Source of the DNA: Liolophura sinensis
Lineage: Eukaryota > Mollusca > Polyplacophora > Chitonida > Chitonidae
Length of the DNA stretch: 64,000 bases
Direction: 5' to 3'
Assembly: GCF_032854445.1 (NCBI RefSeq)
Contig: NC_088305.1
Location: 23,779,400 to 23,843,399, forward strand
A program made the translations under genes and the position numbers. Below the pieces are notes generated by a model. That model was not told where the DNA came from. It saw only the letters and a program-made list of their open reading frames with translations, and made no database searches. Below are positions 6,642-29,000 of this stretch, in pieces; position 1 is the stretch's first letter; every line of letters starts with the position of its first letter.

Positions 6642-9600
6642 ATGAAGATGAAAGGTTATCTTGTTCTTATCACAGCCCATTGGCTTTACTTTGGTTCCCT
6701 GACAGGTAAGCATAGAAGAATTGAAAAACAAAATGAAAACAAAAAGGTGACTTGTTTTGTATGGTTGATATTCAATGGCGTTGTCCAGAATATTTCGCTG
6801 ATACGATGACAGTGAGGAGTAAACGACCGCCCTTCATCAAGTACCGTATAAAAGGTCTGAGTAAAAGCCTTAAGCAAACCAACGAAAGCTTGATTCGAGT
6901 CAGTGATAGCTGCATTCGGACAGGTGACCTCATTCAACTGGTACAACACTTTATTTGAATGAACGAGCAGTTCTCCTTCATTTAGTTGTAAATATATTTC
7001 TTTCATCCGGTGGTTTTCTATATATGCGAAAAATGGTACGAAAATCTAAAAAAAAATAGTACCTAAATACCACGTTTTGTAACAGTATACTAGCATGTGC
7101 CTGAAATGTTCATATTTATGCTAATATTTACTTTAATAAAGTACAAAATTCCTTCACCAATACCTAATTTATCGGATACGTCCGCTGAAAGGAAGCTTTT
7201 TCACCAGGATTGTATTAATACAAACATTCTCGGGAGATTTCTGTTTCAGTCTAATTTTATAATTTCAGCGAAGGTACAAGGAGCTTGTTTAAAATTATTC
7301 GGGATTATTTCCGGGTTTGTGTTAGATAAACCCGGTCGGGTTTGTTAGGGAGTTTACGTCCGGTATTGTTGAAAAACCAAAAAGGTTACGCAGTGTTCCT
7401 GCACAAGAAGGTGACATATATGGACAAACTTCAGTCAAATGAAGACATTTCTCATCATCCATTAAGTATTCTGCACGCACCATTTGTATCTGTAGGAATT
7501 TTACCTTAAAGTTCTGAATAAATATTGATAACCGTTTACTATAATCTCTTTAGTGACATGTAAGCTTTTGGCGAGCTAATGCCAAGAAAAGTGAAAGTTA
7601 GGACAGAGACATGGGTCTCTACAAGAGACCCCTTTAAATGCATGTGGTTATCATTTAAAGAGAAAAGTTGCGGTTTTCTTTTCTGTGACTACAAGTCTTT
7701 TCGATAAAAAAAATTATTTGATTTTTCTTTTAAAGAGGAACTTAGTTTTGAAACCCAGCTCTCTTAAGTTAACCCGTGGGACATCCTGGACAAAAATATT
7801 TTCTCTTAATGCAAAGATTATTAGCAGTTGTGACAGCATGCGAAATAAAATTTTGGTCCACAGTGGTCTGTACAAAACAAACGTAGAGCTAATTAAGAAC
7901 AACATTTCAAATGGATGTCCGTTTGTCGGTTTTTTAGTTTTACACCAGTGTGACAATAATTTCTTACACGAGCCGTTTACACATTTTTACTTGCTATTTT
8001 ACCAACGTGGGCGTATAATCACTAGAAATCTGTTTCCGCTTTTGCACCGTCTTTATCGCCTTATCGTCCATCCTCCTTCGGTGGGATCAGATGTTTGTTT
8101 TCGTCATACTATAACGTACAACGGCTCATTCTTTCTTGAAAAATCCCGATTCCCCTCCCCTTCCTTACACAGATAGAACACTCAACTATAGATGAGAGAC
8201 TATTGGGCGCTTAACATTTGTCTTGTTTTAATATTACAGTATCAGGACTTCGATATGACACCTTCTTGAACCAAACCATTGCTGTTTGCCCCGGTGCGAG
8301 TTGTGAAGGCCAATGTTACGTTCTGCGCGAGGCCGAGGACACGTGCCATTGTGACGCCATCTGTGAAATGTATGGAGACTGCTGCTATGACTACTGGTCC
8401 ACGTGCAAAAATGAGACTCTCGAAATCTCGCGCGAGAAGTCGATGCCGCAAGACAGACTTGTGTGCCGAACCATTGGAGGTCCTCACTGCCATGTGTCCA
8501 TCAAAATGATCGCCGCTTGTCCGTCGTTCTTCGACCTGACTTTGGTAAGCAAACGTTGTGAAACATTCAGCTTGGGTTACATGGCTCCCGTGTACGGAAA
8601 ACGAGGCTATATTTACGCTAACAAATACTGCGCTCAGTGTCATGGAGAAACGTCACATGACCTCGTGAAACTACCAGCTTCCTTGGAATGTCCAGACGAT
8701 CCACTAATATCCCGCATTTTGCAGAACCTAACGGTTGACGACGAAGACAGTTGGCTAACGTTGCAAATTAAGTGCTATTACAACGTCAGTCTGCCGACGT
8801 CACTTGAGCATTACATCCGATACTGCAGCCAGATGAGAATCTACGACAACCCGTGTCACTATCGTCCGGGAGTCTTCCAGTCCCAAGAGCAGTACGAAAT
8901 GCTTTATAGAGCGTGTAACACTTATCAAGGCTTCCTTTCGATCCAGTACAAAGACATCAACCATCACACTTCCTATTACTGGCGAGATCACAAGAACAGC
9001 CACTGTGCTATGTGTACAAAAGTACTTAGCACAAAACTTAACACGAGTTGTCCGACCACGAGAAGCCGAGTTAAGCGGCAACAGTGCTTGACAGGGCCTG
9101 GCTCCGTTCACGCTCCCAGTTTCACAATTTTGTTGGACTTCGACAACGACTTCAGCACGGAGCTAGTTGAAAGCATTAGATCGTGCCCGACAGGGCATAC
9201 CTACGACCCTATCTTAGCTATCTGCAGACCCATAAAATGTTCCCAAGGCTATCGTTTTCTGGATGCCAAGTGCGTTCGTGACAAAGGACTAAGGGATTCT
9301 ATGATCACAATACTATCGGCTGATTTCAAATCAACTTCAAGCAAGGACTATCCCTTGCCCAAAAAGCTTATCGCTGATCTGTTTGACAATATTGGGTCAC
9401 CGGACAACTTCACTTACGACCAGAATATTTCTGGAAATATAAGCAAAGTAACGGGACATTACAGAGCAATGAGAGATGAATCCATTTTTAGAAGTACCAA
9501 TAAAGGGCTGCTGTTTTGTGAAATGATTGCGAACCAATCAAAGGCCCTCGGAATCCACGAGCCCGAATCAGTCTCCATCCAGTGTAACATTTACTTACAT

Positions 9601-10860
9601 TACGAAGATGATCCAGAGAATTGCTTCAAAGAAACTGCTAAACACGCTATATTCAATGATACTTCAGTCAAGGGGCTCTACTATTCTTCCGTAATGGACA
9701 GTTTGGAAGATGAAGACTCCCTTATCCATGTGTCCGTCAGTCTAACAGAAACATTTGTCGGGGGGTCTTTTAAGCTGTCTGGAAAGCTATCAACCACCCA
9801 ATGTAGCTTACCGTTACTGACCTGCCCTTTGATTGAGGTCGCTAAAACCCTTGTCGCGTCCCACAATTCGACACACCTACTGCTTCACACGGGCGAATTC
9901 TACAAAGGTGCCAATTTCAAGATCATGGAGAACAAGACGTATCTCTGTACAGAAATCGTGGACAATTTTACGGAAATCACACAGCCAATGTTTACTCTTC
10001 AGATCGGAGAGAACATCGTGCATTATTACATGACGGTCGTGGGGCTGGGTCTCTCTATAGCGGGATTGGCGTTGACGCTGATTGTTTATGTGACTCTCGA
10101 AAAGCTTAGAACGGTTCCTGGAAAAATCCTGATGAACCTCACTCTGTCGTTACTGTTAGCTCAGTTTTTCTTTGCGTTCGGGACCGGCAAAATGGCATGG
10201 CCGAACTTTTGTACCGCTAACGCTGTCCTGGAGCATTACCTCTGGCTGGTGTCATTTTTTTGGATGAACGTCATATCTTTGGACTTGGCCAAAACGTTCA
10301 TGTCGTCCAGTTTGCTGTCTCACGACGACAGAGGGCGTTCGTTACTGGCAGTTTACTCAGTCTACAGCTGGGGACTTCCGTTTTTGAAAGTCACAGCTTG
10401 TTTTCTCCTGGACATTCTGGACGTTGTTCCCGATAATCAGCTCAAGTACGCTTCAATTAGAGCGTGTTTCTTATCAGGATACAATGGCATGCTGTACGCT
10501 TTTGTCCTCCCGCTTACCGTAATCATGGTTGTGAATATCATCTGTTTCATTGGCGTTCTCCTTATGTTGACCAAAGCATCGTCTTTGGAGAAGAAAATCC
10601 AGAAAAACAGAATCAAGCGAAACCAACACTTCCTCTTGGCAAAACTTCTGCCAATCACCGGCTTAACTTGGACGTTTGGTGTTGTGGCCACCTTCAGCAA
10701 AATTACGTTTCTTTGGAATCCATTCATAATTCTCAACTCTCTTCAAGGCGTGTTCGTGTTTTGTGCCTTTGTCTTAAATAGCCGTGTGAAACGAATGTTG
10801 AAGGCAAAACTGAGCCAGATTTCTCAAGAAGCTACTGGAACATCTAACACACGCTTCTGA
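6642..10860 (+). CDS. Somatomedin-B-containing family-B-like 7TM receptor
   Basis: Two coding exons, 6642-6705 and 8240-10860, joined through GTAAG at 6706 and an AG at 8238-8239 in matching phase (G|TA), give 894 residues. The ATG at 6642 follows 'atacc' and starts a hydrophobic signal peptide (residues 1 to about 21). Residues 38-78 hold the Cys pattern of a somatomedin-B domain (C43, C47, C57-x-C59, C63, C69-C70, C77). Paired CAxC motifs lie at 152-155 and 277-280, and an RVKR furin-type site at 298-301. Seven membrane segments follow: about 619-642, 652-676, 690-712, 727-750, 771-800, 818-843 and 849-872, with LRTVPGKILMNL after TM1 and LPITGLTW in TM6, typical of secretin/adhesion/methuselah-like receptors. 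There is no clear GPS cleavage motif before TM1. The tail is short (about 22 residues). The whole 7TM region lies in one exon. Likely a plasma-membrane receptor; ligand unknown. Confidence 0.9.
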
Positions 10861-17025: not shown

Positions 17026-20000
17026 ATGGCTGAATCTACGTTGAGTGTTGCTGACTTGTCTTCGTTGAAGGTTTGTTCTGGGTTTAAACTTTGATTGTAG
17101 GCATGAATACTATCTTTATGGATCACCACGTTTGAAAATTCCAGCTGCTGTCGTGTTTAGATGCGTGTACAAAGCAGTGATTGAGTTGTTAAAGGCTTTC
17201 GATTTCGTATACTGCAACAACAACGCCAGTGCAAGGCCACGAGTACTCCATTTGTGCATGATCCTTGGTCATTGTTTCAGGTCTCTACGTACATAAGTAA
17301 CTCTGCTCCAATCCACCTTGTACCATAACTATCCCGCACCTTTTTATATATTTTTACACATCTAAATAGCGAACATGTGTAGAGCCCTGGCCTAATGAAT
17401 TAGACCCGTGGGTCCGTTCCTAGCTCAGGATGACATCGCTCATAGGGCCTCGTTTAGTCATGGCTGGGTCCCCTTTGACCCGGTATTATGAATTGTAAAA
17501 TTTCGGAAAACTGTCGATTACTAACGAACCTCGCCCATCCAGTCACTCCTTTACAATGCTTAGGGTCCTAGGGCACTAGACTAGGTCAGGTCTATCTTCA
17601 ACAATCTCTGGTATTTACTTGCTTCAAAGTCTTCCATTTTGCAAGACACTCTGACTATGTGGAACGAAGTGGGCCTTGAAATCCAATACAAAATAGCCCA
17701 AGATTGCTCTGATGTTAGGTTTGGAAAAATTTTGTTCAGCCAAGGATTGCCCCAAACCAACGTCAGAGTGGGCTCCATTTAAAAACCTTCTGTTGTAGGT
17801 TGCTGACCTGAAGAAAGAATTAAAAGAACGTGGTCTACCATGTTCTGGAAACAAAACAGAATTGATAGAGCGATTACAGGCTCATCTTGAAGCTGATACA
17901 GAAGACCTGTCCATAGGAGACACAACCATTGGACTGAACGACACTGATCCAGGTATGAATATGGTGCATCCCATTTTATACTTGGGTTGTAATCTGCATA
18001 ACATTTGCCTCCGTTTCATTGGGAATATTGTAAATAAGTCGTAAAGTTGAATATTTGCGTTTAATGATATCTTGCCAAGATTACTATTCGTTTCAAAGTT
18101 ACATTTTCATTCTAGACTTAAATGATAAATGGAAAAATTCTGTTTTTCTTTCACAGCAGTTTCTGACACAAAGTTGGATATGAGTGAGTGACAGTTATCA
18201 TTTGGTGGAGGAAGGTGCTTTTGTAGCAAGTCTCTTAACCATTCACTTCTCTGTGCACTAGCAAATTTAAGACCACAGTACCTCATGATTGTCAATATTG
18301 GTGTCTTAACTGCATCTTCATGATATTTGTGTTACTTTCAGCAGCAAGCTCTTCTGTCTCTGGCAACCAGTAACCTGTCAATGAAAGTTCATACCTGTCA
18401 TATTGATATACTCTGTCTGTGTAACAATCATAGCCTGGCCAAGTGGATTAGCATGCTAGTTTAGCGCGATGACCCAGTAGCCTCCCACCAATTTGGCCGT
18501 TGTGAGTTCAAGTCCAGCTCGTGTTGGCTTCCTCTCTGGCTATGTGAGGGAAGGTCTAGCTGCAACCTGCAGATGGTTGTAGGTTTCCACTTTTCTCTGC
18601 CCTGGTTCCTCCCGCTATAATGCTGGCCACAGTTGTATAAGTGAAATGTTCTGGAGTACAATGTAAAAGAAATATCAAGTAAATAATTACATTATAAATT
18701 AATCATAGAAAAACTCATTATACCTAAGCTCTCTAATCCAGTATCAGTGCTGCACTGAAATAGGATCCTGACATTAAATGTGAGTACAGTATGTGTAAGT
18801 CTACATCTGTCCAGGCACCTGCCTATACAGATGTACAGGTAACTCTTGACAAGCAAGAAACCAGTGAACATTTGCATTGAACAACATAAGCACTAATTTT
18901 CTTTGGCCATTTATGGCATGCTGATAATGTCAGCATGAAGTGATTAAGATTTTAACTAACATGATTAAGAATCTTGAAAAGACATTAGTGACCCCAAAAG
19001 CCTACAGTGCTGCTCCATAATAATAATATATCTGGCATGGATATGGGTCTGGATATCCATGTAGGAAGGGTGTGATATTGGAGGAAGATGTTCATATAAT
19101 ATGCCGATCACACGGCCAAGATGGGTATATCGCATCCACTTATGATTGACGTAGGATCTGAAATCATCCACATAGGTTTTACAACATACATGTACACTTT
19201 CAATCACGCATCAACTCATTTAATTTAGAACAAAAGCTACGATGTTGGACACCAACTTCTCGAAATGAAAAAATATTCACAAAGCGAAAGGTATAGTGCC
19301 TGGTTTGGTTATTCATTCAAATATATTATTATGATAATTAGCTGGTTGCATTTTGACTGTTTCCGCAATTATTCGGCAAATGCAAAAGCAAAACCTACAA
19401 TTTGTGTATTTTATATATGTAAAATATGTACTTTAAGGTATAAATGATGTACTTCATTATAGCAGAGAACTCTGAGGAGAACTACTTCTAAATGTATCAC
19501 AGTGTTATCCTTTTTTATTGCATGTTTTGTCCTGTAAGACAAGGCAAACCTGGCAAAACGTCTTGAAAGAACAAACTTTGAAGTTTAAAAAAAGTAGTTT
19601 CAAGTTTCTTGAAGACTTGTTTGTGGATTAGTCATGTTTGTAAGGTTTGAAAACTTACACATAGATTACACTCGTGTACACATAGATTACACTCGTGTAC
19701 ACATAGATTACACTCATGCACATATAAATGACACTCATGCACACACAGATTACACTCATGCACACATATATTACACTCATGTACACATAGATTACACTCA
19801 TGCACACATAAATGTAAATCACAGTGGTCATGTTATAGTGTTATCCTCTCTTTGCACGGACGGCTATAGAAGGATGCCCTAATTTTCAACGGCCTATGTC
19901 TCCAATATGTTGAAACATTCTGTGAGAACTGTGGGGTGTAATTGTAAAAAATAATTTGCACCGTTTTACGAAGCTTGCATGTTTAATGTTTTTTAAACAG

Positions 20001-23000
20001 AAAGAAATCATTTTTAGTCTCATTTTCATTATAATTATATGCATTCCACTGAAAACATACATGTAGCTTTAGTAGTTGAAAAGGTTGAAGACTTGCAGTA
20101 AGTCATGTATGGGTTATCATGATGTCAAAATAATGTCTGGTGTCGGGTGTCTTTAGCATGACTTTTCTGTGAGGCAGCACAATACAAAGGCTTTAAGGCA
20201 TGACATATACATTAGTACAAGACCACACTGTCTTGTATTATTGTTATTATTTCAAAGAAAGAAACCTAAAGTACAAAGGTGCGTGTTCCTTTATAACAAG
20301 ATGTGGCCTAGGGTGCATTTATTCATATTACCCACAGGAAAGGTGGCATACAGCTGATTTGAATTGTGAAGCCCGCTTTCAAAAACTTAACTACCATCTG
20401 ATAAGTGAAATTTTTCTTAGCCTTGCATTGAACGCCTGTTGAATTAATAATTAAAATAAATCATGCAGTGAAGCCTGTGGTTTGTTACACATGTATAGAT
20501 TTTTGTACTAGCTGCTAAGAAACCCCCCACAATTATAGCAGAGGAGCTGGGCAGTTAATTCTCAATTACGAGAAATGAATGATATCACTATATGTTGCTT
20601 TCAAAGTAAAGTTTTGGAGAAGCGTTCCATTGATCATGAAAAAAACTGACGACACCATAGACTTTAATAGCTTCTTTATTGTCCTGTTATTTTTTTTTTC
20701 AGTCAGTATTAAAATATTAAAGGCCATTTATCTTTTACTTTCAGGTATAGATGATTCCCTACTTCATGAAGAGACCACAGATGTAAGCTTGACTTCCGTA
20801 CACCTGTAGTAGCACCCACATTGTTACAAATATAGAGATACATGAAGACCTTTATGTACTGTGACTGGAAATGTTAGATCTTCACGACATAGAAAACAAA
20901 GTGTCACAGTAAATGCCAGATTTGTACCAGTCCAAAATCCAATAGTTCCAGGTTCAGTGCCTAGCTGTCTATTTCTCAGTGTGAAAAAAATTAACTGAGG
21001 GACAAAACCAGTCGTCTGTCATCCATGGAGAGGTTCTAAAATGCAAATCTCTAGTTTGCTCTGTTCCCATTGCTGTAAAATGACCTGGAAATTGTGTCTC
21101 AAACATGCCAGTTTAGTCAGGTAGTAAATTAAAGGGAAATCCCAGGAGATTTCTGTCGATGGATTTTAATCGATGGTAAGGCCAAAAAATTGATCCGACT
21201 AACAGACATCTGGACTTTGCCTGTTGCAGATTTTGTTTTCAAAGGCCGGCTAAATGCCATCATTATAATAGATTGTTTTGGAGTAGATGTAATTTATTAT
21301 TCCATCATTATTTGTTTTCAGGTACAAAATAAAGCCGCCATCCCTGCCAGTAACACACAAACCACAAGTGTAGTCACAGAGAAACCTGTCCGGGCGAAAA
21401 TCACTATGTCTGATGAACCGTAAGTGATGCCAGGCCAATGGAGCAAGCCTTGGCCTTGTGGCTAAGATGTTTGTCTTTCAGTTGGCCTGCACTTTGATGG
21501 GGAATTTGTATTGCTCTGTCTTAACTGTTGCAGTGCCTTAAGGTATGATGAACCGTAAGTGATGCCAGGCCATTGAAGCAAACCTTGGCCTTGTGGCTAA
21601 GATGCTTGTCTTTCAGTTGGCCTGCACTTTGATGGGGAATATGTATTGCTCTGTCTTAACTGTTGCAGTGCCTTAAGGTCTGATGAACCGTAAGTGATGT
21701 CAGGCCAATGAAGCAAGCCTTGGCCTTGTGGCTAAGATGTTTGTCTTTCAGTTGGCCTGCACTTTGATGGGGAATTTGTATTGCTCTGTCTTAACTGTTG
21801 CAGTGCCTTAAGGTATGATGAACCGTAAGTGATGCCAGGCCATTGAAGCAAACTGTAGCCTTGTGGCTAAGATGCTTGTCTTTCATTTGGCCTGCACTTT
21901 GATGGGGAATTTGTATTGCTCTGTCTTAACTGTTGCAGTGCCTTAAGGTCTGATGAACCGTAAGTGATGCCAGGCCATTTAACCAAGCTGTGGCCTTGTG
22001 GCTAAGATGCTTGTCTTTCAGTTGGCCTGCACTTTGATGGGGAATTTATATTGCTCTGTCTTAACTGTTGCAGTGCCTTAAGGTCTGATGAACCGTAAGT
22101 GATGCCAGGCCATTGAAACAAGCTTTAGCTTTGTGGCTAAGATGCTTGTCTTTCATTTGGCCTGCACTTTGATGGGGAATTTGTATTGCTCTGTCTTAAC
22201 TGTTGCAGTGCCTTAAGGTCTGATGAACCGTAAGTGATGTCAGGCCATTGAACCAAGCTGTGGCCTTGTGGCTAAGATGCTTGTCTTTCAGTTGGCCTGC
22301 ACTTTGATGGGGAATTTATATTGCTCTGTCTTAACTGTTGCAGTGCCTTAAGGTCTGATGAACCGTAAGTGATGTCAGGCCATTGAAACAAGCTTTAGCT
22401 TTGTGGCTAAGATGCTTGTCTTTCAGTTGGCCTGCACTTTGATGGGGAATATGTATTGCTCCATCCTAACTGTTGCAGTGCCTTAAGGATGCCAGGCCAA
22501 TGGAGCAAACTGTGGCCTTGTGGCGAAGATGTTTGTTTTTCAGTTGGGCTTCACTTTGATGGGGAATTTGTATTGCTCCGTTCTAACGGTTGCATTGCCT
22601 TAATTCATATTCCTTTATATTTATATCATATATTCGTGAGTCTGTGGCCTAGACCCCCATTTCCTTCACCCAGAACCAACACATAGGAATAGTTGACAGG
22701 TGAAATTTTCTTGAACAAAATGTAGGCGTTACTAGATCTTCAATCAGATACCTTCATTGATAATAAAGTTATATTATGGTGTAGTTGATTTAAATTATAA
22801 GCCAACTTCAAATGACAGGGCACGATGGCTCAGTTGGTAGAGCGTCCGCTTTGGGGGTAGATCCTGGGTCGGGTCACACCAAAGACCTTAAAAGAGGAAG
22901 TAGTAGCTTACTCGCTTGGCGTTCAGCGTTAAGGGGATAGTGCAACAACTGGTTGACTCGTATCAGTATAATGGCTCGAGTGGGGCGGTTTACTTGCGTT

Positions 23001-26000
23001 CGGTAAGTGTTTTTAGTAAGTCTTTTCAGCGAAGCAGCACTAGGTAAAAGTGAGGTGGAAAAGCATCCTGCAGCAAGGAGGCACATTACATGTATATGCA
23101 CTGTTAAGGACTCCTTCATCATCATATGACTGAAAAATTGTTAAGTACAACATTAAACCCTATGCTCTCACTCACTCACTCAAATGCCTTGACTGTTGTC
23201 ATGTTATACGTGGTGGGTGTGATCTAATTGAAGTTAGGTACATACGTCCGTCAGGCACCATATGATTTGTCTAACTTGGCCATATTCCATTGTTGACCGG
23301 CCCGGATAGCACAGTTGGTAGAGCGTCCGCTTCCGGACAGGTAGATCCAGTATCAAGCCTTGATCGAGTCACACCTAAGACTTTAAAAGAGGAAGTTGTA
23401 ACTTCCTCGCTTGGCGTTCAGCATGAAGGGGATAGTGCAACGACTGGTTGACCCGTATCAGTATAATGGCATGGGCGGGGCGGCTTACTTGTCTTCGGTA
23501 AGTCGTCTCAGCGAAGCAGCACTAGATAAAAGAGCAGTGGAAATCCGTCCTGCTACAAGGAGACACATTACAGGTACATGTACCCTAAGGATTCCTTCAT
23601 CATCATATGACTGAAAAATTGTATAGTACGACGTTAAACCCCAAGCACTCACTCAATCACTCCATATTCCATTGAAATAACGTTTATTAAAATTTCTGAT
23701 AGTATATGCATGTGAATTTCTGAATTTAAAGCTAAATTTCAGTGCTTCAGCTGCCATGACAGTACATTGAAGGCACACATGTATATAGGTCTTTGTTATA
23801 TGCCTTGGTTATGGGCCTACGTGCACGGCATCCATCTTGAGCAAGATGTGACCTTGATGTGCAGGTTTATAAACAGTGCTCAACTGCATACATACACCAC
23901 ATGACGTGCGTAGTATTGTGAAAAGGCCTCTCATGTGAGGGATACACATATATTTTGGCATATATAGCTACAGCACAGCTTTGCCTCATCGCCAGACAGA
24001 GTATGCTGATATAGTATTATGTTGTTGTTGCAGTGCCTACATGCTTCACGTGCGCCACTTCTGTTTTATAAATTAGTTTCTTAATCGGTTATATTAATAC
24101 TGACTGAGGTATGCGAGGGAAGAGTATATGAAAAGGATCTAGACACAACTGAAACCAAGACAAAAATCGGTGGTTTTGTCTTTTAAATAAGTAAAAGATT
24201 ATATCCTTGCATGTCGTTGAAGTCACGGCTGATCTAGTGTATGTATTTTGTGTTTGGAAGTACTTCGAGGCCAGGGTTTCATATGTCGTCATTGTCGGCT
24301 TATTTCAGGAAGGGAACAGCAAATGGACATGAGACCACGGCAAAGAAGCAGCTGTCAGATGCAGAGGTTTGTAGTCTTCTGGTCATTATTGTCACTTCAT
24401 TTTAGTTCACCAGCACCTTGCAATGAGCTTGTATCAAGGAATTTAACAGTGAATATATAGATTTGGCTAATCTCACTTTTCTTGAGGCTTTGGTGACAGT
24501 ATGCAACAAATGCCTGTTTGTGCAGTCTAACACTCATTAAAAATACCACTGGTTTTCCCACCAATAAAAGATATAAAAAAGCCCACCCATCTAAAAATAA
24601 AAAAACAATCTAGAGTGTGGCATTAAACAAGAATCAGATAATTAAGAGGAAGAACAAGAGCCATAGCTAGTCGTACTAATGGGTTTGATCACCACCCTGC
24701 CACCTCCCCCCCCCACTCTCCACACTTCCAAAATAAAAATTTGATATAGGTAAATTTACATTTTCGCTCACTAAGATTACTGTAATCAGCGACTGATTGA
24801 TGAGATCGCAGTTTAGAATACTAATCTCGCTTGCTTGGTAGCAGCTTAAAGTTACGGGGATTAACAGGTATCTGGCGATGGGTGGTCATTTTTGACACTG
24901 TGGTAAGTGAATAAATGTGCAGTTGGTTGGAGTATCATCTGGAAATAAGATATTGAAGTGTATGCTATGCATAGGTTTTGTGCTGTTGGCACAATCTGTG
25001 CTTTCATAACTTCCAGTGTGAATCGGCTTTGCGACAACCGTTGTAGAGTCAACAGTCTTCATATTTTCTCTGCGTGTTACAGAAGCTGAAGCTACGGACG
25101 GATCGATTTGGTGTCCAGTCAGAGGCTGACAAGAAGAAATCCAGAGCAGAACGGTATGTGTACGTGGTATAAGAGTACATGGACATTCTGAGTAAATACC
25201 TGCTAGGTTGGGTGAGTCCAGTGTAAACCCCACGTCGTGGCCCTTGTGCTCTGCCTTACTCTTCGTGTCCCTTGGGCTTCGTGTCCCTTGTGCTCTGCCT
25301 TGCTCTGTGTCCCTTGTGCTCTGCCTTGCTCTTCGTGTCCCTTGTGCTCTGCCTTGCTCTTTGTGTCCCTTCTGCTCTGCCTTGCTCTTCGTGTCCCTTG
25401 TGCTCTGCCTTGCTCTTTGTGTCCCTTGTGCTCTGCCTTGTTGTTCGTGTCCCTTGTGCTCAGCCTTGCTCTTCGTGTCCCTTGTGCTCTGCCTTGCTCT
25501 TCGTGTCCCTTGTGCTTTGCCTTGCTCTGCGTGGACACATAAGCAGATCACTGAACTGTAGAATAATAATATTGTTCTTTTCTGATATATCCCCTTATAT
25601 ATTTCTTTTTATTCCATGCTTCCATGAGAGCAAGGGATGTTAAATTAATTTGAGTTCTTTCTGCCAGTCTTTTGTTTTGGTGAAAACTGCTACAAGTATT
25701 CTCTGATTCTGACAAAATGCTGCTGGTTCAGGTTATACAGGCTCAGATCAAGTTGGAAAACCAACTGGATCAAAGAAAAAGGCTCAGGGAGCTCTGTTTA
25801 TATTACAGAGGTGTTTTGAGATTTATTTGGAAGGCACAAATGCTTTGTAAGAGTATGAATTGACCTCCAAAAACGCACTCCTTGGCTGAAATATATGTAG
25901 GTCAATGGCACTACAGTATGTGCACTATATATGCTGTAATTCTTCAACCTTTTTGAATGTTTGCAAGCTGTTTATTCAAGCATATTCTGAAGGCATTTTT

Positions 26001-29000
26001 CTGAGTAGACTGATAAAATTATACTTTTTGTGAAGCCCTGAAATTGGCTAACCCAACCAAAGTAGTTTTGTCTCAGAAATCAAATTAAAAATGTGTATAA
26101 ATTGCTCTGAAAGTTGCTGTTTCTTATGCTAAAAGGTTGAGGAATAAGAGTACATATGTGTACCATAATTCTTTTAAAATATATCTACATCCTATTGCTT
26201 TCAGATTTGGCCTTTCAACCACAACAACAACAACAACAGCAGGCGCTACACAAAAACCAGGGAAGATTGTGAACACACCTGTCACAGTATGTACCTAATG
26301 AGAAAGTATTTATGATTCTGTTAAAGCAAATCTGAAAACCCTTATGCTGGGAGCAGTACATTGTCAATTTGCTTGAGCTGCTGTGGCTTTCACTGGCTAC
26401 ATTTAGGACACATGAGATGTGGGTTCAAAACTGAATATGAACAGGGAATTTGTAGATTTTCCAGCTTTCACTGTTCATGAAACCTTGGTGACAATAAGTG
26501 CTGGGCAACACTTCAGTGGAGGCGAAACTCATGGAAGACCACTTGTCTTCCATCAACACATTGTGCGTATCTGAAGGACAAACTTGGGAATGTTCCTCAG
26601 TAATTTGCCAAGGGTCTGTGGTTTACCTCGAGCTGTCCAGTTTTCTTCTACCATAAACTGACCATCATTGCACAAATGAACAATTTTTGAGTGTGGCATT
26701 GAATTTAGAATGGTACTTTGTTTTGATTTATTTATTTATTTCATTGGTGTTTTACACCGTACTCAAGAATATTTCACTTATACGACGGCGGCCAGCATTA
26801 TGGTGGGAGGAAACCGGGCAGAGCCTGGGGAAAACCCACAACCATCCGCAGGTTGCAAGGCCTTCCCACATATGGCCGGAGAGGATGTCAAGCATGAGCT
26901 GGACTTGAACTTACAGCAATGGCATTGGTGAGAGATTCTTGGGTCATTAGGGTGCACAAGCGCGCTAACCGACTGTGCCACGGAGGCCCCTAGAATGGTA
27001 CTTTGAGATGTGTTTGGTAGGTAGAATGATATCCTACTGGGAAAATGTAAATTTTTGCACTGAAGTAGTATCTATTGATATTTATTTGCCTCTAAAGATG
27101 CTCTTTTGTGGTCAGACTTTTGTGAAATTGTTACTGGAATTTACGATTATGAACAATACATATTTGCTCTGTCATTTTAGGCTGCTGATCTGGACAAGTT
27201 GAAAAAGAGAGCAGAAAGATTTGGTACCGTGGTGTCTACATCCTTATCCAAGGTAAGGGAACAGTTTGGAAACTTCCATGTAGCATCTGAGGGTTGAAAA
27301 GAACAGCCCTCTAGACAAGCTTGGCATAAAAAGCAACTAACATAAATTCCGTGATGGCCTGGTGAAGTTTGCTAATTGGATCTGTTCTCCAGGTAATCTT
27401 GGTGACATATAATAAGGTGTCATTTGCTAGTTGGATCTATGTCTGTTCTCCAGGCAATGTGAGTGATATTTAATAAGGTGTTATTTGCTAGTCGGATCTA
27501 TGTCTGTTCTCCAGATAATCTTGGTGACATGTAATAAGGTGTCATTTACTAGTCAGACCTGTGTCTGTTCTGCAGGTAATATGGGTGACATGTAATAAGG
27601 TGTCATTTGCTAGTCGGATCTATGTCTGTTCTCCAGGTAATCTTGGTGACATGTAATAAGGTGTCATTTGCTAGTCGGATCTATGTCTGTTCTCCAGGTA
27701 ATGTGGGTGACATTTAATAAGGTGTTATTTGCTAGTCGGATCTATGTCTGTTCTCCAGGTAATACGGGTGACATGTAATAAGGTGTTATTTGCTAGTCGG
27801 ATCTATGTTTATTCTCCAGGTCGCGGAGATTGAGAAGCTTCAGCAAAGGTCTGAGAGATTCGGAACATCAGTTGCCCCAACGTTGTCTAAGGTAAATAAA
27901 ACATTTAAGAGTAAAGACTGAACATTATTTAACTGTACGAATATGTAGTAATTGCCCTGATTGTTCAGCCTTTTCAACCTCCTCTGCAACCAATATTGTG
28001 AAACATTCTGAAAGGACTATGTTTTGCAGAGAAGGAATTTGCACAGTTTCATGAAGCTTGTTGTCTTTAATGATACAAACAAGTCACTTTTAGCATCATT
28101 TTCATAATGATTTTATTTGGTTGTAAACCGCCAAACTTTGGTCAGTTATTGATGGACCATGCATTTTGTGACATTTAGACAGGTATACCGTTTTTATGGA
28201 AGATACATGCATGTGGTCTTCAACAAACGTTATTCTGTGCAATCAGTTGACCACTTATTGACAGCTGGGAAGACCGTTATCAAAAGAGGGATATGTGGTA
28301 CTAGATAGTTTTGTCTTTCTCTAAGAAAAGATACATCTTAAGTTTTACATATTTTATCGTTCCTCACTTCTAACTTAAGTTCTTTATATATGCTTTGGGG
28401 CTGATTCCACAGAGCCATTTCTGAATTAAAAATTGAATTATGATCATCAAGCTTATTTTTCGGCTTCAGAAATTAAAATTTTGTTGCCCATGTTTAAGAT
28501 AAATCTGTCCAAATTTCTACTTCCAGAACCAAAAACTACGCATTGTAAAGATGTTTTAGATTTTCACTAAACTTAGAAATGGCTTTGTGGAATCTGGTCC
28601 CAGAGGTTGACCAAATAATACAGAACATGAAACACCATGTACCAATGTAAACTACCAATGGAATATTAAGATATTGTTCTTTAATCAGCCAAATGAACAC
28701 GCCGTATTTCAATTTACGATATGCTGGTTAGTTCACATTTTTATTTTGTTTTTGTTTTTTCGGTAATCTTTTATTTCCACCATTGACTCTTAAAAGAACA
28801 TGATACATGTACATAAATCCCATCAACCTACCCCCACCCACCCCCACCCCCCAAAAACACACACACTACTCTTACCCCTAGCCACAAGCCCACAGTCGAT
28901 CTGCTAATGAGACCCCTTGTACGATTCCTGTTCAGATAGAAGAGCAGGACAAGATAAACAAGAGGAAGGCAAGGTTTGGTGCTGTGGCGCCCTCGGGGGT

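Follow-up and report, generated by a model that had tools for sequence, protein, structure and literature searches.

Does a tandem repeat that carries the end of an exon together with its splice donor manufacture new exons, or are its surplus copies passed over by the splicing machinery? The question is raised by a gene of the chiton Liolophura sinensis lying in a window of 64,000 nt (the whole stretch of DNA analysed here; NC_088305.1, positions 23,779,400 to 23,843,399), where an exon of SARNP runs into an array of 135-bp units. The initial annotation proposed that this array supplies in-frame microexons of 21 nt, by which the protein might gain between zero and seven heptapeptides. We addressed this claim by dissecting the array and its splice signals, and by looking for comparable arrays at the junctions of other genes.

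Anatomy and uniqueness of the array

The array extends from 21409 to 22488 (plus strand) and is composed of eight ungapped units (TRF: period 135, 8.0 copies, 94% matches, 0% indels), which bears out the initial description of an exon end and donor enclosed in a 135-bp unit that is repeated with no change of length. Each unit consists of 11 nt of exon end, the donor hexamer GTAAGT and 118 nt of further intron sequence, and the exon end (with one A/C variant) plus GTAAGT is present in 8/8 units. The first 11 nt of unit 1 are the final bases of a 98-nt SARNP coding exon (21322..21419, +; exon 4 of the initial annotation). Donors reading AACC/GTAAGT, where the slash marks the splice site, lie at 21419 and at the last base of each of seven candidate microexons on the plus strand, numbered 1 to 7 in order (21534..21554, 21669..21689, 21804..21824, 21939..21959, 22074..22094, 22209..22229 and 22344..22364), whose first bases directly follow acceptors reading GTTGCAG/. 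As had been noted, the distance from acceptor to copied donor is exactly 21 nt in all seven pieces; the 21-mers encode ALRYDEP in candidates 1 and 3 and ALRSDEP in the remaining five, and the introns between copies would measure 114 nt (135 minus 21). The acceptor GCAG is intact in 8/8 units. These acceptors had also been called pyrimidine-rich, a description that is fair if not strong, with 13 pyrimidines among the 18 bases upstream of the AG.

Downstream, the array is followed by a degenerate ninth unit (22489..22603, +), in which exon end and donor are missing and the acceptor position shows GCAT. Consequently, no copied donor lies 3' of the eighth acceptor copy (22460..22488, +; exon start 22479, score 2.1), a built-in dead end. 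Reading on from 22479, the frame stays open for 68 codons up to a TAG at 22684-22686, and an AATAAA follows at 22762, so that the segment 22479-22762 could possibly be an alternative terminal exon, or a product of chance. Two related, tRNA-headed, SINE-like copies (22815-23190 and 23300-23670) were seen by reading in the same intron as the array. The next SARNP exon, of 58 nt, lies at 24309..24366 (+).

In structure, the copied unit includes both exon and intron, as is the case when a tandem duplication takes in a splice junction; the array is arranged head-to-tail in several copies of tens to hundreds of bp, as is a minisatellite (135 bp x 8.0, 94%); and its 21-nt pieces are very short, divisible by three and open in phase in 7/7 cases, as are symmetric cassette microexons. 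A search of the 609-Mb assembly with the 135-bp unit returned 9 matches, all at the SARNP locus, and the array is not chance sequence. Derivation from a dispersed repeat was rejected for this unit, and likewise for the 61-bp unit of a second array in the same gene (see below), as the matches of both are confined to the SARNP locus.

Reading frame of the SARNP gene

The gene is SARNP (CIP29, Tho1), an identification made in the initial annotation and upheld by the N-terminal SAP domain (Pfam SAP, 3e-13, residues 1-31 of the joined protein) and by the Tho1/MOS11 C-terminal domain (Tho1_MOS11_C, PF18592, 4.1e-17, in two stretches). The joined protein was spliced from the 11 exons found, which range from 27 to 154 nt; the first coding exon is missing from it, and a simple upstream scan for an ATG and a donor did not reveal it. 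With an exon start at 26205, the joined frame runs open as far as the final stop and comprises 270 codons without microexons and 319 with all seven, in agreement with the claim that the 21-nt pieces are symmetric, in phase and open. This property is not a sharp one here, since versions of the array microexon of 12 nt and 9 nt would also stay in frame. Furthermore, positions 18157-18183 likely represent a natural symmetric SARNP microexon of 27 nt (or of 24 nt, given its CAGCAG acceptor), and inclusion of one or the other form, or of neither, leaves the joined frame open up to its final stop. Elsewhere in the window, an uninterrupted frame of 881 codons (8215-10860) resembles, by reading only, a receptor of the seven-helix type that has a long extracellular region.

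History of the array

Pairwise, the units differ at 2 to 12 of 135 sites. Units 1 and 3 differ at only 2/135 sites, as do units 5 and 7, while units 2 and 4 differ at five sites and units 6 and 8 at six, which is no closer than some other pairs; one state of column 2 is common to units 2 and 4 alone, and states of columns 35 and 47 to units 6 and 8 alone. The pattern points to putative copying of two-unit blocks, and for this reason the copy number of the SARNP array could vary between animals. Unit 9 is nearest to unit 1 (14 differences, versus 16-20 to the others), shares column 33 with unit 1 alone and columns 30 and 62 with units 1 and 3, and has columns 109 and 113 in common with unit 8; probably it is an old edge copy. 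The simplest order of events would be a 117-bp intronic duplication followed by a 135-bp duplication that included the exon end, the alternative history being a loss of 18 nt in unit 9.

Splice signals and conservation of the candidate microexons

With the reservation that the scoring matrix is a simple one of human type, the seven array acceptors reach 2.6, as against 2.7-7.8 for the 11 real SARNP acceptors and 4.8 for the competing real acceptor at 24309. At 2.7, the lowest-scoring real acceptor hardly differs from those of the array, and the array donor is identical to the donor of the real exon. Microexons often have modest splice sites and depend on enhancers, which such a matrix does not score. 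The best branch-point-like sequence, TTAAC, as read from the sequence, lies only ~10 nt before the array AG.

Conservation among the copies likewise failed to single out the microexon. Microexon plus donor contain 1 variable column in 27, compared with 18 in 135 overall (hypergeometric 0.083, with 27/135 rotations of the mask as good), and inclusion of the acceptor tract raises this to 4 in 47 (0.175; 42/135 rotations as good); neither the column counts nor the mask rotation thus gave a significant excess of conservation, there being few changes to test with. Nor is the pairing of acceptor and donor itself exceptional: 264 kb of sequence, both strands included, contain 1408 donors at least as strong, of which 168 are preceded at 9-60 nt by an acceptor as strong as that of the array, and in 67 (60/1400 without the array's own copies) the distance is divisible by three, which makes the pairing in the array a coincidence of about 1 in 20, before an open frame is required.

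Other choices within the array would be destructive. A second acceptor-like site, tttcag/TTGG, is present in 6/8 units, its AG having been lost in units 4 and 6, and scores 2.0-2.1 on the human-type matrix in the six units that keep it, near the acceptors of the 21-nt pieces; its use would give an exon of 73 nt that breaks the frame and reaches a stop. Extension of the exon to the next donor (+135) leads to an immediate TAA.

An exon-to-microexon junction was sought as a copy in the genome, with 0 exact matches and 2 two-mismatch matches versus 5 for a reversed control. This absence says little by itself, as no retrocopy was found: a 243-nt spliced query that skips the array had 3 matches in the genome, all of them the gene's own exons, and a protein search for a second SARNP copy or retrocopy gave none, 8 of its 9 matches being at the gene and the remaining one a weak SAP-like match on C1 (E 0.16).

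A second array at a SARNP acceptor

SARNP harbours another array at a splice junction, in this case at an acceptor. A 61-bp unit (27381..27820, +) places seven acceptor copies (six CTCCAG and one CTGCAG) upstream of a 72-nt exon (27820..27891, +), for which the final copy of the array serves as the real acceptor; on the human-type matrix the upstream copies score 4.5-6.3 and the real acceptor 5.9. Five of the seven upstream decoys read AG/GTAAT and are, by their sequence, zero-length recursive-splicing-like sites, so that picking one of them in error could create a donor anew. Without such re-splicing, use of a wrong acceptor would bring the first stop at codon 203-227 instead of 270 in 7/7 cases.

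Altogether, 2/4 intronic arrays of SARNP touch a junction, for which random placement gives P values of 0.004 (overlap of up to 12 nt) and 0.009 (up to 20 nt), both post hoc and based on four arrays that we picked ourselves. This is more than random placement gives, and neutrality of the arrays is therefore not proven.

Arrays at splice junctions of chaperonin genes

To find out whether such arrays are confined to SARNP, exons of the CCT chaperonin (PF00118) were sought in the genome, with 50 matches, 48 of them usable; the first seven loci were chosen for a match inside an oddly long open frame, and most others were fetched later. Arrays at a splice junction were found at 4/48 usable exon sites, three donor-side and one acceptor-side, in CCT3 and CCT5. 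Within CCT3 (all on the minus strand), one donor-side case (L045, C8:53405401-53406700) repeats the exon end and donor in 66/88-bp units and continues into L066; its first units are open in frame, repeating VCRLVISLLVPGGGATEMALAQ, and each downstream donor of the 66-bp units would add 22 residues. Another donor-side case (L056, C8:53407100-53407880) contains diverged copies, of ~60 bp, of the exon end and GTGAGT. The acceptor-side case (L057, C8:53411770-53412790) comprises eight acceptor copies (gatgtatttatgtacag and variants) spaced by 41 bp before and at the exon, the final one of which, at 338, is the exon's acceptor; this exon is flanked on its other side too, by a 28-bp x 21 array just 3' of the donor. 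Lastly, in CCT5 (L042, C1:72037901-72040301, minus strand, donor-side) 93 nt of exon end and 16 nt of intron form 109-bp units in at least 4.8 copies; the array runs past the locus to about C1:72037610, and use of a downstream donor would shift the frame. The intron preceding the 109-bp array contains a further, separate array of 71 bp x 8.

CCT subunits are conserved, essential proteins, from which we infer that donor arrays are spliced at their first copy and acceptor arrays at their last: only the exon-proximal copy would give normal CCT3 or CCT5, the other copies being ignored. Junction-reaching arrays are a recurrent class in this chiton, the recurrence resting on three genes in total, as three of the four CCT cases fall in CCT3 and the 48 sites are thus not independent.

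Recurrence does not amount to enrichment, which we do not claim. CCT junctions lie in arrays in 4/95 cases, as against 114/1000 random positions that fall within locally copied DNA (Fisher 0.036); by type, the figures are 3/47 for donors (Fisher 0.47) and 1/48 for acceptors (0.054). Junctions hence look somewhat protected from arrays overall, and donors not detectably so. For these counts, an automatic procedure took the site with the highest score close to each match edge as the junction, so that some positions are approximate; a candidate donor at 719 of L057 was dropped from the count, as it lies inside the neighbouring array, and its junction was kept in the denominator. In addition, copied bases were required on both sides of a junction, which leaves the SARNP acceptor array unflagged, and 1/22 SARNP positions was flagged. 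Of 200,000 bases sampled from a single contig, 19,154 belonged to minisatellites.

A probably tolerated minisatellite and its alternatives

Taken together, we consider it probable that the SARNP array, as a member of a recurrent class, is a minisatellite which spans a splice junction and is tolerated there, the exon-proximal site being the one in use. Presumably, a tandem duplication across the exon-intron border copied 11 nt of exon along with the donor, and later copying of blocks of one and two units would have produced the eight units. The exon-proximal donor at 21419 would be spliced to 24309, while the downstream donors and weak acceptors would act as decoys that are mostly ignored, the microexons being mostly skipped. 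Such an array may survive through exon definition, which would pick the copy beside the real exon, and also because an occasional inclusion of 21 nt would keep the frame. The initial annotation had allowed, as a minimum, that the identical donors compete or serve as decoys; this now appears the better reading, as arrays in the other genes would need their copies to be ignored. Counting against it, the GCAG acceptor is kept in 8/8 units while tttcag was lost in two, as selection on the microexons predicts.

That the microexons are included, singly or serially, to give SARNP a variable (ALRSDEP)n linker whose maximum is set by the copy number of the array, seems to us unlikely. It would account for the open, symmetric phase of 7/7 pieces and the intact GCAG of all eight units; introns of 114 nt between copies are long enough, and the gene may already possess a symmetric 27-nt exon at 18157-18183. 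The larger claim, of up to seven extra heptapeptides, was nonetheless not supported: the acceptors are weak (2.6 versus 2.7-7.8 on the human-type matrix), conservation is not significant, the orphan eighth acceptor would compete, TTAAC lies closer to the AG than the usual distance from branch point to AG, and the genome holds no trace of the junction (0 exact; 2 versus 5 for the reversed control), with no retrocopy to inform either way. Somewhat less probable still is the general version of this idea, by which chiton minisatellites would routinely cross junctions and act as length-variable cassettes, adding 0-7 heptapeptides to SARNP and, at a low level, 22 residues per donor to CCT3, so that protein length would vary between animals. 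The junctions that bear on these readings would join ...GATGAACC to TGCCTTAAGG or to GAAGGGAACAGC.

The destructive choices described above might instead be the point of the array, which would then act on SARNP as a poison exon or dead end, lowering its output or autoregulating it, through the 73-nt exon, the extension, or splicing to 22479, the last of which could even give an alternative 3' terminal exon. We regard this as improbable: the 73-nt exon and the +135 extension do stop at once, tttcag scores near the 21-nt acceptors in six units, and the frame from 22479 runs for 68 codons up to its TAG with the AATAAA beyond, but the tttcag AG is lost in 2/8 units, no conservation test speaks in favour, open runs such as 68 codons arise by chance, and similar arrays occur in unrelated genes. 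Least credible of all is an assembly artefact hiding a true genome with one or two copies. Tandem arrays are a classic assembly hazard, and HiFi coverage in the Liolophura japonica genome paper, which puts heterozygosity at about 1.2%, is only 14x (PMC11068029); yet HiFi reads average 8,347 bp in that study, far more than the 1.1-kb array, which makes an artefact unlikely, the units differ at 18/135 columns in a partly ordered pattern, and many of the loci sampled have arrays that differ from this one in sequence.

Implications for splice-site choice

Identical donors behind one exon and identical acceptors before another put the choices of the spliceosome to a natural test. If introns are the units defined, the last copy of a donor array should be preferred, and exon definition would single out the first; in an acceptor array, scanning predicts use of the first copy, and exon definition use of the last. 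Should several percent of this animal's exons lie in such arrays, in line with the 4/48 sites of the small CCT sample, they would offer a ready set of replicates and a stock of new introns and exons at an early stage. Junction arrays may also yield false splice junctions in read mapping, and gene models in this genome need care in this respect; splice-aware aligners have been described to make false junctions between repeats (EASTR, PMC10632439).

Comparison with known systems

No multi-copy minisatellite across a splice junction was among the literature matches listed (titles and abstract beginnings, from one library). The closest published case found is a potato gene in which one tandem duplication spans the boundary between intron 1 and exon 2, and which gained an intron (PMC4974935). 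As there, the duplication in the chiton crosses an intron-exon border and moves ready-made splice signals to new positions; in contrast, potato shows a single duplication, at a 3' splice site, with a new intron detected, whereas the chiton has eight copies, at a 5' splice site, and candidate splicing. More generally, the array resembles reviewed cases of intron gain in which duplicated sequence supplies both donor and acceptor, and whose "imprecise" version, as the review describes it, adds coding bases; however, those duplications involve an exonic segment with AGGT, while the chiton unit is mostly intron and its acceptor GCAG is intronic.

CeRep25B, an intronic minisatellite of C. elegans, has been suggested to act through the splicing-regulatory motifs it contains (PMC4039745). 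Both repeats are minisatellites near alternatively spliced sites, or candidate ones in our case, but the SARNP unit itself holds a splice site and an exon end. Finally, the candidate microexons are reminiscent of the schistosome micro-exon genes, described as consisting to ~80% of short symmetric exons of 6-36 bp and as encoding products that are almost always secreted or membrane-anchored (PMC5825161). SARNP itself was rejected as a gene of this type, with just one of the 11 exons found being 36 nt or shorter. In both systems, short symmetric exons could vary a protein without a change of frame; in SARNP, unlike the schistosome genes, the pieces would constitute an optional insert in a SAP-domain gene.
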